Shown piece after piece: positions 18,528-22,454 of a stretch of 35,054 nt of DNA. The first letter of the stretch is position 1; each line of letters opens with the position of its first letter. The stretch is from a bacterium (GTDB lineage Bacteria; Hydrothermota; Tepidihabitantia; Tepidihabitantales; Tepidihabitantaceae): the NCBI GenBank assembly GCA_035505375.1, contig DATJQV010000059.1, positions 1 through 35,054 on the forward strand, in the 5' to 3' direction. Below the pieces are notes generated by a model. The model saw nothing but the letters and a program-made list of their open reading frames with translations. It had not been told where the DNA came from and did no database searches. The translations under genes were made by a program, and so were the position numbers.

Positions 18528-18555
18528 TTGACGCCCGGTCGATGCCGGCTAGACT
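18528..18555 (+). promoter_or_regulatory. Promoter of the TlpA-like selenoprotein gene
   Basis: TTGACG, a 16-base spacer, TAGACT. The ATG is 36 bases after the -10 box, with AGAAAGGA 4 bases before it. Confidence 0.6.
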
Positions 18556-18591
18556 CTGGGCCGTCAGAGCGCGTGACTGGAGAAAGGAACC

Positions 18592-19122
18592 ATGCGAAGC
18601 AGAGCACTGTTCGTACTACCGCTGGTCGTTATCGGGCTGGCCTGCAACGCCTTCGTGGCCACACCCGAAGTCGGTGCCAAGGCGCCGAACTTCAGCCTGC
18701 CGGACACGGCCGGTGTCAACCACTCCCTGACCGAGTTTCGGGGCAAGGTCGTGCTGCTCAACTTCTGGCAGTCGGGCTGACCGTACTGCCGCGCGGAGTT
18801 ACCGCGCCTGTCGGCAATGCAGAGTGACTATGCCACGCGTGGGTTCGCGGCCGTCTCCATCAATCTCGAAGAGAACATGGACGATGTCGTCAAGGTGTGG
18901 GCCAGGCAGAACACAAACCTGTACCTGCGCGACGATGGCTACGAGTGGACGATCTACAAGCACAACGGCTCGATTCCTACGAACTACGTGATTGACACGG
19001 CGGGCGTGGTCCGCTACTGGTCAGAGGGCTTCGACGAGACCGCGGTCCGGGGCGTAATCGAAACCTACCTACCGGCTGCGGGCCAGGTGGCAGCCGTAAC
19101 TGCCAAGTCAATCCGCGACTAG
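18592..19122 (+). CDS. TlpA-like thioredoxin, probable selenoprotein (UGA at codon 63)
   Basis: Read through the TGA at 18778-18780, this is one 176-residue protein; without it the gene would be two unrelated fragments in the same frame. Order: a hydrophobic signal (possible lipobox ending at C18), PEVGAKAPNFSLPDTAG (TlpA/AhpC-TSA opening), FRGKVVLLNFWQSG, then U63-P-Y-C66-RAELP, and GSIPTNYVIDTAGVV with the cis-proline. Relatives have W-C-x-x-C at the redox site, so the TGA sits exactly at the first catalytic Cys. Directly after it lies a hairpin with the geometry of a bacterial SECIS. It should act in the periplasm or on the membrane as a thiol reductant or disulfide-exchange protein. SelB, tRNA-Sec and the other Sec genes are not in this window. 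Confidence 0.85.
18787..18816 (+). promoter_or_regulatory. Candidate SECIS hairpin
   Basis: The inner stem GCGCGG / CCGCGC (18791-18796 with 18802-18807) closes a 5-base loop AGTTA. Outer TGCC / GGCA (18787-18790 with 18813-18816) can extend it past a 5-base bulge. The loop begins 17 bases after the TGA and has G at its second position. From memory, the E. coli fdhF SECIS has its loop (AGGUCU) starting 18 bases after UGA. Confidence 0.75.
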
Positions 19123-19150: not shown

Positions 19151-21310
19151 CTATCGCTCGACCACTAGTTTGAGCGCGGAAGATAGGTTCCCTTCGCTGA
19201 CTCTGACCAGATAGACGCCGGACCGCAGGTTCCCGAGTTCGACCCTTTGCTGCGAGCCGGTGGCGATGACTTGGCGCTTTAGCACGGTGCGGCCGGCAAC
19301 ATCAACGACCGCGATGTCCAGGCGGTCACCGGCTTGCGGGCCGGCAACAAGAGTAACGTATCCCCGGTTCGTCGGGCTGCCACGCAGCTCGAAACGTAGA
19401 GGCTGGCGTAGCGGCTGCGCCTCGCTGACCGCGCCGGGCGTGTACTCGTCCGCGCCGATGTCCGGCGAGAGCGAGTCGCGCCGGTCAAGCTCGATGTCGT
19501 AGGGGAACCCGGCAATCGGAATCCCCGAATCACGGCAGGGCGACGAGGAGGAGAGATGGTAGTTGTCCCCGGTCACGAATAGCGGGTCGCGCGACAGGCT
19601 GTGCGCATCCGGCGTCGCCGGGTACGCGCGCCAAGCGGCCAGCGTCGCGTACGCAGTCTCGTTCACGCGGGCCACGCTGCCGCTGTCCGAAGTACACAGG
19701 TCGTTGTTGTCACTTGCGCCGGGAGCGAATGGAAACGCTTCGGAAATATCGTAACAGGTGGAACCATACCGACCCCGGTTCCAGACGATGTTGTCTCTGG
19801 CCTCGGCCCCGGTTACGTTGGCGAGGTCAACTGCCACATTTCCAGCGCTGTCCTTTCCGACAATCGTGTTGTAGTAGAGCCGTGGCGATTGAACGTTGCG
19901 GAAGGTGACGCCGAGGTCGTTCCAACCCTTGATGCAGCTATTGGCCACGACCGGGCCGCGGCAGTTCAGAGCCGAGATGCCGACCTGCGTCGTGCCCAGT
20001 ATCGTCATCCGCGCGAGCGTGTCGTCGTTGCAGCTATCGCCCAGCACGACCGAAACCGGGGCGGCGCAGACCAGCGAACAGGGCTGTACGCTCACGCCGC
20101 TGCTCTGGCTGAGGGCCATTGCTGCGACTGCGGCGGCGCCGTGCAGCTTGGCATGGGCGAACCGCGTGCCGGAGGAACGGCTGACGCTGAAGCCTGTACC
20201 GTAGCCGCCGTAGAGCTCGGCCCAGCGGAACGAGCAGCCCGGCGACGAGTCGAGCAGCACGCCGACCGCCGTGTCGCTGTTCACACTCACCACCTGCAGG
20301 CTGTCGATGACGCAGCCCGGCGAGTGGTCTAGTTCAAGGCCGCGGATCGGCCCGCTCTGGAGGGTCAAGCGCATGAAGTGGCAGTCGTTGCAGCGAAGAA
20401 GCGTGACCGCCTTCCGCGAGGTCCCGGCATCCATCATCGCGTTCGAGCTGATGGAGTCGCAGGACTCGAAGTAGGCCGCCTGTTTGTGCGTACCGTACGT
20501 CAGGCAACTGTCGAAATGCGCCGACGCGCAGTTGACCGCGTACAGTCCGTTGTCGGTCGAATCATGAACTGAGCATCCGGCCACCGAAATGCGTGGTGAG
20601 TTCACGACGCGGAACCCGGTATCGCTTGCGGCTTTGATGCCGGTCATCATCGTCATGTTGTCACCGCCGCCGGTAATCGAGACGCCGGTGTTGAGCGTGC
20701 CGAGTATCGAGCACTTGCGGACCGAGGCGGACCAGCAGTCCCGGAAGTCGAGGCCGCGGCTTCCCGAAGAGCGCATCGTTCCCTCCACGCGCGAAGTGTC
20801 GAGGTGGAAGTTAACCGCCCGCTCCACCAAAAGCCCGGTCTGCGCCGAGTCCGATACCATCCGGCAGGCCCAGACCGAACCGGAATCGGAGTCGGCGAAC
20901 CGGATGCACGCGCTACCGGTATCTCGCACGCCCTGGAAACGCAGATTCTGCACCGTGACGTTGTGCGTGCTCTCGACCGAGAAGGCAAACCTGGAGCCAC
21001 CCGCGTCAATCGTCGCGCCCGCGGACTTGGGCAGGAACCGAATCTTGTGGGTGCGGCTGTTGGCCACGCTGTGCAGCGCGACTGTGCCGGTGTAGATTGC
21101 CTGCGCAATCGGGAACTGGACGTCGCCGCCCAGCCCGCGTGCGTTCAGCGCGTTGGCCGCGGCCTGTACCGAGGCGAAACTGTCCACTCCCGGCCCGCCT
21201 GACCCGACCGGGTAGACTCCGTTCATAGGCTGGGCAGAAACCACGGCCGCGAACAAAGCGGCGCACGCCAGTAACGGTGCCGAACGTCTAACCGGCAATG
21301 GTTGGAGCAT
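19151..21310 (-). CDS. Right-handed beta-helix protein with T9SS sorting domain
   Basis: About 719 residues from ATG 21310. A longer frame exists upstream, but a -10 box 7 bases before this ATG and the signal peptide directly after it (SAPLLACAALFAAVVSA) fix the start. The body is a chain of short repeats of the parallel beta-helix kind (VTVQNLRFQGVRD, FHLDTSRVEGT, SVRKCSILGTLN, ISVAGCSVHDSTDNGL, VIDSLQVVSVNSD and so on), then a LSPDIGADEY motif common to such right-handed helices, and a T9SS type A sorting domain at the end (LDIAVVDVAGRTVLKR, LRSGVYLVRV). Such proteins are often polysaccharide-binding or lyase-like; no catalytic residues can be named. It is convergent with the thioredoxin gene, 28 bases away. 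Confidence 0.85.
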   Translation of the reverse strand: MLQPLPVRRSAPLLACAALFAAVVSAQPMNGVYPVGSGGPGVDSFASVQAAANALNARGLGGDVQFPIAQAIYTGTVALHSVANSRTHKIRFLPKSAGATIDAGGSRFAFSVESTHNVTVQNLRFQGVRDTGSACIRFADSDSGSVWACRMVSDSAQTGLLVERAVNFHLDTSRVEGTMRSSGSRGLDFRDCWSASVRKCSILGTLNTGVSITGGGDNMTMMTGIKAASDTGFRVVNSPRISVAGCSVHDSTDNGLYAVNCASAHFDSCLTYGTHKQAAYFESCDSISSNAMMDAGTSRKAVTLLRCNDCHFMRLTLQSGPIRGLELDHSPGCVIDSLQVVSVNSDTAVGVLLDSSPGCSFRWAELYGGYGTGFSVSRSSGTRFAHAKLHGAAAVAAMALSQSSGVSVQPCSLVCAAPVSVVLGDSCNDDTLARMTILGTTQVGISALNCRGPVVANSCIKGWNDLGVTFRNVQSPRLYYNTIVGKDSAGNVAVDLANVTGAEARDNIVWNRGRYGSTCYDISEAFPFAPGASDNNDLCTSDSGSVARVNETAYATLAAWRAYPATPDAHSLSRDPLFVTGDNYHLSSSSPCRDSGIPIAGFPYDIELDRRDSLSPDIGADEYTPGAVSEAQPLRQPLRFELRGSPTNRGYVTLVAGPQAGDRLDIAVVDVAGRTVLKRQVIATGSQQRVELGNLRSGVYLVRVSEGNLSSALKLVVER

Positions 21311-21317
21311 TGTCGAG

Positions 21318-21345
21318 ATGATAGCCACGGGCAGCGGCGGCGCAA
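21318..21345 (-). promoter_or_regulatory. Promoter of the beta-helix gene, leaderless
   Basis: On the minus strand TTGCGC (weak -35), a 16-base spacer, TATCAT ending 7 bases before ATG 21310. Confidence 0.45.
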
Positions 21346-21465
21346 ACCATACGTCCACTTGTTCTTTCGTCCTTCGTTCTTCGTCCATCGTTATCCCCGA
21401 CCCTGTCTCTTTGTGCCTTGGTGTCTTTGTGGTTGACTCCTGCTGCGAACGGGGCGGAAAACAGC

Positions 21466-21509: not shown

Positions 21510-22409
21510 CTAGCGCGCGAGCTTAACCAGACGCGCGCTCTGGCTGCCATCCCTGAGCAGGTAGACGCCCGGTTTGAGCCCGGCACCATTGAGGACGGCG
21601 CAACCGGACGCGGGAGCAGTCAGCGTGCGAACCAGGCTGCCGGCAGCATCATACAGGCGTAAGGCGGAGTTGGCGGCAAGGGACGAGGAGCAGCGGATGC
21701 TCGTGGCCGCGGTGAAGGGGTTGGGGTTCGCGGAGAGCGGCGAGGAAACGGTCAGCAGGCTGTGGTCTTCCTCGATACCGGCGGTCGCGAGCGAGACGTT
21801 ATCGGCGGAAACTTCCGCCCAGCCGCCGCTTCAGGTCCCGTTGTCGTACGCGTACAGGTCGATAGTAACCTTCGCCACGCTTTCGCGATTGATGCCCGGC
21901 AGATTCCACCCGAGCTCCTGCCACAGCTTCAGCGTGTACGTATGCCACCCGCCGCCCGTATCGGCAATCGGAATCAGGCTTACGGTATCGCTCTTGGCCC
22001 ACGAGCAATACTGATTGTGCAGATAGAAACGGGTGTTGCCCAGTTCGCTGTCGGACGAATTCATATACCTGACCCATACCGAGGCAACCGGCCAACAGGT
22101 CGATGACCCGCCGCCGATCTTGAACCTGCCGTCGAAACTCAGCGCAAGATAGACGTCGGGCACGTCAACGGTCTGACGCAGCGACGCGAAGTAGGCAAGT
22201 GTCTTGTAGACCTTGGCGGCATAGCCCGGAGTCGGCTGCCCGAACGTATCCGAGCGCGCGAACGAGTCTGACCCGACAACGTTGTTGGCCGTATCAACCC
22301 AGCCGGTAGTAATCGCCTGCTCGAAATCGCCGTTCACCAGATACTCGGTCGCCGCGGCCGGTGCGACGAGCGCTAAAACCAAAACGGAAAAAAGCAGAAT
22401 TCTCTGCAC
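21510..22409 (-). CDS. Secreted carbohydrate-binding-like protein with in-frame TGA and T9SS sorting domain
   Basis: 300 codons including the stop, crossed by a TGA at 21831-21833 (codon 193). The start is GTG 22409 with GGAGG 7 bases upstream, followed by signal peptide LLFSVLVLALVAPAAA. Residues ~22-190 look like a jelly-roll carbohydrate-binding domain (YLVNGDFEQAITTGWVD, LRQTVDVPDVYLALSFDGRF, WHTYTLKLWQELGW). The frame continues past the TGA without another stop: SGGWAEVSADNVSL completes the jelly roll, then NPNPFTAATSIRC and GLKPGVYLLRDG form a T9SS sorting domain. So the TGA is either a nonsense change (for example from TGG) or read as selenocysteine; a hairpin like the one in the thioredoxin gene follows it. 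Which of these is true cannot be decided from one sequence. Confidence 0.7.
21806..21822 (-). promoter_or_regulatory. SECIS-like hairpin after the second in-frame TGA
   Basis: On the minus strand the stem GGCGGA / TCCGCC begins 12 bases after the TGA and closes a loop AGTT whose first base is 18 bases after it. Loop sequence, stem length and spacing nearly equal those at 18787-18816. It may be chance, since the same bases encode a plausible AEVSA turn. Confidence 0.4.
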
Positions 22410-22454
22410 TACATTACCTCCAGGACATGTCGGACGCTTTGGACCGGACAATAC

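Follow-up and report, generated by a model that had tools for sequence, protein, structure and literature searches.

An in-frame UGA very probably encodes selenocysteine in a new family of secreted jelly-roll proteins

The window analysed here, the whole stretch of 35,054 nucleotides of bacterial DNA, carries on its minus strand a gene for a predicted secreted protein that is interrupted by an in-frame TGA, which raises the question of whether this codon marks a damaged gene or is read as selenocysteine (Sec). The gene occupies positions 22409–21510 (minus strand), as delimited by translation through the UGA and by full-length alignment with relatives of 63–66% identity in which the UGA recurs. 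It starts with GTG at 22409–22407, comprises 299 codons when UGA is counted as Sec, and ends with TAG at 21512–21510. Its sole internal stop is the TGA at 21833–21831 (minus strand), codon 193, after which 106 codons remain open, as a preliminary description of the locus had reported with coordinates that all proved right. A Shine–Dalgarno-like GGAGG is visible in the sequence itself 7 nt before the GTG (22417–22421, minus strand). The N-terminal signal peptide, VQRILLFSVLVLALVAPAAAT (22347–22409, minus strand), is predicted from a basic residue, a hydrophobic stretch and AxA, and residues 1–14 have low pLDDT in the AlphaFold2 model. It is followed by a jelly-roll domain at residues 22–209 (21783–22346, minus strand), assigned from AlphaFold2, Foldseek and alignments, and by a type A sorting domain of the type IX secretion system (T9SS) at residues 229–296 (21522–21725, minus strand), which scored 23.9 bits with TIGR04183 (curated cut-off, 23) and stayed under the cut-off of the Pfam model PF18962.

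Among 100 relatives searched, approximately 90 homologous stretches were found, and almost every one of them contains a single in-frame TGA. The DNA of these stretches was translated with TGA as U and aligned, giving 112 distinct domains, 108 of which cover the position of codon 193. The preliminary description had proposed that Cys at this position in homologues would favour Sec, and Trp or Gly a nonsense change; the codon is UGA in 107 of the 108 homologues, Cys in one and Trp in none. The closest relatives share 63–66% identity with the window protein over its full length and have the same UGA, which is kept across many species down to relatives of approximately 30% identity. Conservation is 72% downstream of the UGA compared with 63% upstream of it in the relative L031. 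Six of the nearest loci have public names, and all six belong to candidate division WOR-3. A profile search of 390 genomes plus one other phylum yielded further members, and in that other phylum three of the four genomes searched have members, all with UGA. The family has more than 100 members in about 50 genomes, all of them from uncultured bacteria and mostly metagenome assemblies; because the relatives are phylogenetically linked, member counts are not independent events. No second copy was found in the window's own genome by a profile search, and 24 other weak matches from a separate search mostly reflect T9SS tails in common.

In a single draft genome, a lone TGA would look the same if it were a plain nonsense mutation, or an error of sequencing, in a decaying gene (for example TGG to TGA). 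That explanation fails because the UGA is common to relatives of 66% and approximately 30% identity in many species and in two phyla; in addition, the part behind the UGA is conserved and its hairpin covaries, leaving this account with a negligible probability. Both the change from Trp, which the preliminary description had raised against Sec, and an assembly error are ruled out by the residues at the aligned position. The single Cys form of the family, L121 (G007:C1:2500112-2500666), occurs in a genome with several Sec paralogues, and pairing persists in its hairpin region (GTCAGAGTCCTGGC), as though the gene had lately been converted from Sec.

The putative bacterial Sec insertion element (bSECIS) is a hairpin at 21804–21819 (minus strand), which is paired in all relatives with compensatory changes. 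Its core, GCGGAAGTTTCCGC, lies at 21818–21805, 12 nt past the UGA, and one more G–C pair extends the stem to GGCGGA/TCCGCC; the loop AGTT begins at nucleotide 18 past the UGA, leaving 17 nt between them. The hairpin named in the preliminary description is therefore present, with a stem that is standard-paired in all UGA homologues. Folding of the window gene alone was no better than that of shuffled sequences (z = −1.05), so the case for the hairpin rests on covariation. The 14-nt core occurs in 14 versions in the 107 UGA genes, including, besides that of the window gene, GCGAAGGTCTTCGC, GCGGAGGTCTCCGC, GCAAAGGTCTTTGC, GCGAGGGTCCTCGC, GCACAGGTTTGTGC, GCGTGGGTTTACGC, GCTGAGGTCTCAGC and GCCGAGGTCTCGGC. 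In these genes each of the 535 cells for the five stem pairs holds a standard pair, and all variable stem positions covary, whereas sliding the partner by 1–3 nt as a control lowered the proportion of standard pairs to 23–67%. When synonymous codons were redrawn 1000 times for the same peptides, 415 ± 7.5 Watson–Crick cells were obtained (maximum, 440), compared with 530 of 540 observed, approximately 15 s.d. above this codon-preserving null, and the pairing is thus not explained by protein conservation.

The peptide residues encoded by the two stem arms are themselves coupled as K–F (57), E–S (35) and R–L (7), with a mutual information of 1.09 compared with 0.08 in shuffles, and the hairpin, judged from these patterns, dictates the peptide at the stem as AKVFAD, AEVSAD or ARVLAD. 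These residue pairs offer a clear example of protein sequence being set by an RNA element. Loci of the second phylum, left out when the pattern was derived, have new compensated stems, GCTAAGGTCTTAGC and GCCAAGGTCTTGGC. In the distant homologue L171 (G280, 131 bits), which lies outside the family proper and has no residue equivalent to Sec, the pairing is lost (GCCGACGTGTATGC). Two-sided stem changes in many lineages, as read from the alignments, cannot come from common descent alone, although the relatives are not independent. The preliminary description had also suggested comparing TGA and hairpin jointly in related genomes, and both are kept there. The published bSECIS model has a loop of 3–9 nt, a stem of 4–16 bp, a G within the first two nucleotides of the loop and 16–37 nt between UGA and loop (PMC13188914). 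The window gene has a stem of 5–6 bp, the loop AGTT and a spacing of 17 nt; family-wide, G and T of the loop are invariant and the spacing is 17, 20 or 23 nt.

The genome that carries the window encodes tRNA-Sec (72.9 bits, anticodon UCA), SelA (537.6 bits), SelB (339 bits) and SelD, that is, all the machinery for Sec synthesis and insertion. Its selD (L183, G000:C89:15467-16372), which adjoins selB on the same contig, has one in-frame TGA of its own and is probably the known Sec form of SelD. In 100 genomes, selA was found in 44 of the 49 with the family and in 12 of the 51 without it (p = 7e-12, with no correction for relatedness); conversely, of the 56 genomes whose selA exceeds the cut-off, 44 have the family, compared with 5 of the other 44. 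These five genomes (G015, G018, G029, G055 and G063) all have selB, complete in three and partial in two, and incomplete assembly thus probably explains them. Furthermore, a family gene lies within approximately 10 kb of selA in six genomes, where 0.75 would be expected by an estimate from genome sizes (Poisson probability near 1e-4).

In the AlphaFold2 model of the window protein (mean pLDDT, 88.6; mostly 94–99 over the jelly roll), Sec 193 is placed in the loop that joins the last two jelly-roll strands, 180–189 and 197–209. The best solved structures in Foldseek were CBM4, FBG3, MAM domains, CBM61, CBM16 and CBM11, with E values from 1e-9 and a probability of 1.00, and the modelled domain is a CBM4/11/16-type jelly roll. 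The 'carbohydrate-binding' label in the preliminary description finds support in the fold alone: CBM sequence models were not reached, with no match for the window protein and a best Pfam value of E = 0.0099 (CBM_4_9) among 55 members, and the domain could not be assigned to a named family by searches of Pfam, NCBIfam and PDB sequences. CBM4/9, CBM11, CBM16, FBG3/Fbs1 and MAM modules thus have the predicted fold in common with the new family, whereas the Sec loop and the invariant NGDFE/Q/E/AxVxAD motifs are particular to the latter, which in the alignments shows NGDFE, ELxxNLPG, U and AEVSADN in this order. The fold similarity, taken from the models, points to binding rather than catalysis. 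Like T9SS type A cargo recognized by TIGR04183, the window protein combines a signal peptide with a C-terminal sorting domain; unlike such cargo, it contains a predicted Sec. Two nearly full-length T9SS sortase-like ORFs in its own genome scored 387 and 365 bits (cut-off, 420).

Short members consist, as the window protein does, of the jelly roll and a tail, whereas long members, which make up most relatives, have 250–580 more residues past the domain, and several of these end in T9SS-type tails. Single-domain members also occur, some with lipoprotein-like starts, and comparison of the three kinds shows Sec in the secreted module throughout. Matches of a structure model of the long member L102 (pLDDT, 82.3) were mainly to multi-domain glycoside hydrolases, with low TM-scores, and were not taken as evidence of an enzyme. 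These architectures bear on a further explanation, in which UGA would be read as another residue or would serve for programmed partial termination, so that one product would have the T9SS tail and another would lack it. Stopping at the UGA would indeed yield a jelly roll without its last strand and tail, and every SelB system is expected to make a certain amount of truncated product. However, a product ending at residue 193 would lack the final strand 197–209, most relatives continue far beyond the domain, and the full Sec machinery, the fitting bSECIS and the co-occurrence with selA all speak for Sec, making the explanation very improbable. The preliminary description, which had placed the end of a jelly roll and a T9SS sorting domain behind the UGA, agrees with strand 197–209 of the model and with the TIGR04183 score.

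On comparative evidence, recoding with its SECIS element is shown, as are the family, its fold and the sorting tail. We put the probability that UGA 193 encodes Sec and that the gene belongs to a new secreted jelly-roll selenoprotein family at about 0.93, a figure that covers the recoding and the family and not a redox role. The suggestion of Sec and of a possible new selenoprotein family in the preliminary description is borne out to this extent by UGA conservation, hairpin covariation and the complete Sec machinery. We propose the following scenario. SelB with Sec-tRNA(UCA) would read UGA 193 as Sec, directed by the short hairpin inside the coding sequence that starts 12 nt downstream. The signal peptide would export the chain, and the type IX system would carry the protein to the cell surface via the C-terminal sorting tail. 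The mature part would be a CBM-like jelly roll exposing Sec in the loop that links its final two strands, where Sec could form a selenylsulfide with a nearby Cys, namely the preceding residue in most relatives and probably Cys105 in the window protein. The protein could then act on extracytoplasmic substrates by thiol/selenol redox chemistry, jointly with thioredoxin-like UxxC selenoproteins that are secreted as well and whose genes lie nearby.

The Cys inventory and the gene neighbourhood are the basis of the redox reading. At least one Cys is present in the domain of all 104 Sec members, and in 59 of the 104 a Cys immediately precedes Sec. Cys105 of the window protein (22095–22097, minus strand; alignment column 115) is the candidate redox partner: the column holds Cys in 33 of the 45 members in which another residue precedes Sec, compared with 10 of the 59 in which Cys does, so that the two positions substitute for each other (p = 7e-9, relatedness uncorrected). 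Cys135 (22005–22007, minus strand) lies in a column that is Cys in 73 of 107 sequences and is retained in each of the 12 members with neither of the other two candidate partners. A partner Cys that moves but never vanishes fits, we infer, a selenylsulfide redox pair. That Sec does thiol/selenol redox work at the surface has, on these patterns, about an even chance, and the odds are similarly balanced for the fuller proposal of a selenylsulfide with a nearby Cys and redox chemistry beside UxxC selenoproteins.

Sec might instead bind a soft metal, a metalloid or selenium at the surface of a real selenoprotein without redox catalysis. The Cys–Sec pair of the 59 members also occurs in the metal-related SaoL (MerB-like), HgcA and MbdU (PMC13188914), and the jelly roll is a binding fold. 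However, the partner Cys wanders between the vicinal position, column 115 and column 146, which suits a selenylsulfide over a fixed metal site, and many neighbours are thioredoxin-like UxxC proteins; we regard metal binding as unlikely, at perhaps half the weight of the redox reading. Less probable still is a structural role, in which a selenylsulfide cross-link would stabilize the apical loop of a surface module that binds carbohydrate, with no turnover. The CBM-like fold and the constant presence of Cys in the domain are compatible with such a cross-link, but a disulphide would normally suffice, yet Cys replaces Sec only once in 108 homologues, which suggests that Sec is so firmly retained because its reactivity is needed.

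The nearest of the neighbours considered in the redox reading is a TlpA/AhpC-TSA-like redoxin gene (stop-to-stop frame 18553–19122, plus strand; PF00578, 73.2 bits after read-through), approximately 2.4 kb from the jelly-roll gene on the opposite strand. Its UGA at 18778–18780 lies in a UPYC motif and is accompanied by a similar hairpin with AGTT in the loop (−18.2 kcal/mol), as the preliminary description had noted for a thioredoxin-like gene, and its product is a predicted selenoprotein of known type. When 19-kb regions around family genes were compared with arbitrary regions of the same genomes, an Omp28-family (PF11551) ORF with UGA in a UxxC motif, for example ELYSETUPSCPTAS, was present in 8 of 20 family-gene regions and in 0 of 20 others (p = 0.003). 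Such ORFs, each with a PF11551 match and one UGA, are L184:5832-6917, L184:12650-13750, L185:10447-11253, L186:13980-15089, L186:15194-16000, L188:12275-14484 and L189:14775-15866. They encode secreted or lipoprotein thioredoxin-like proteins, often two or three together, and likely constitute a second new selenoprotein family, which is absent from the 119-family catalogue discussed below. None was found in the nine regions around family genes in the window's own taxonomic family, where the TlpA-like gene alone lies near the jelly-roll gene. The Omp28-family and TlpA-like selenoproteins resemble the jelly-roll family in being secreted or lipid-anchored, often with T9SS-type tails, and in having one UGA, but belong to different protein families with a thioredoxin-like UxxC motif. 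Tentatively, and at somewhat less than an even chance, T9SS-exported jelly rolls with Cys–Sec or Gly–Sec loops and Omp28-like selenoproteins may be partners in selenium-dependent chemistry on an extracellular substrate at the cell surface, with the RNA signal having fixed the sequence of the last strand.

Like the catalogued SelB/bSECIS selenoproteins, the family has an in-frame UGA, the full selA/selB/selD/tRNA-Sec set and a hairpin that directly follows the UGA, with a G among the first two loop nucleotides and 17–23 nt from UGA to loop. It differs from catalogued bacterial selenoproteins in having a jelly roll instead of the usual thioredoxin-like fold and almost no Cys homologues. The mechanism is thus of the ordinary SelB/bSECIS kind, and the novelty lies in the protein family itself, in its fold and in its almost complete lack of Cys forms. 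To our knowledge, nearly all known selenoprotein families were discovered through Cys homologues. According to the deep-Sep paper, every known selenoprotein now appears to possess Cys homologues, and a candidate that lacks them may be discarded by filtering (PMC12013277); a family with more than 100 members and practically no Cys form shows what methods of this kind miss. No jelly-roll, CBM-like or T9SS family is among the 119 families and subfamilies of the 2026 prokaryotic selenoprotein catalogue (PMC13188914), and NCBIfam release 20, which has models for many selenoprotein families, gave no match for 55 members. Searches of the open-access literature on selenoproteins with WOR-3, Stahlbacteria, T9SS or carbohydrate-binding modules gave no report of the family and no account of WOR-3 selenoproteins, and neither of the two papers there that contain both 'selenocysteine' and 'T9SS' was, by title and abstract, about such a protein. 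Standard annotation would truncate the family genes at the UGA and so overlook the last strand, the middle domains and the sorting tail of proteins that would place Sec in a binding-type fold at the cell surface.

Some loci showed further features. At G021:C10:37789-38496, G014:C123:1894-2595 and G061:C196:4683-5291, the homologue matches contain additional stops (TAG/TAA or a second TGA) and are probably match overruns or decaying copies. In the C-terminal extension of L131, a frame free of TAA and TAG after the jelly-roll UGA contains two more in-frame UGAs (ESDUPPAURRDCPGTC), which may represent a second Sec motif or an overrun past the true stop. Directly downstream of the jelly-roll gene, an ordinary secreted protein, a right-handed beta-helix with a T9SS tail, is encoded at 19151–21388 (minus strand).
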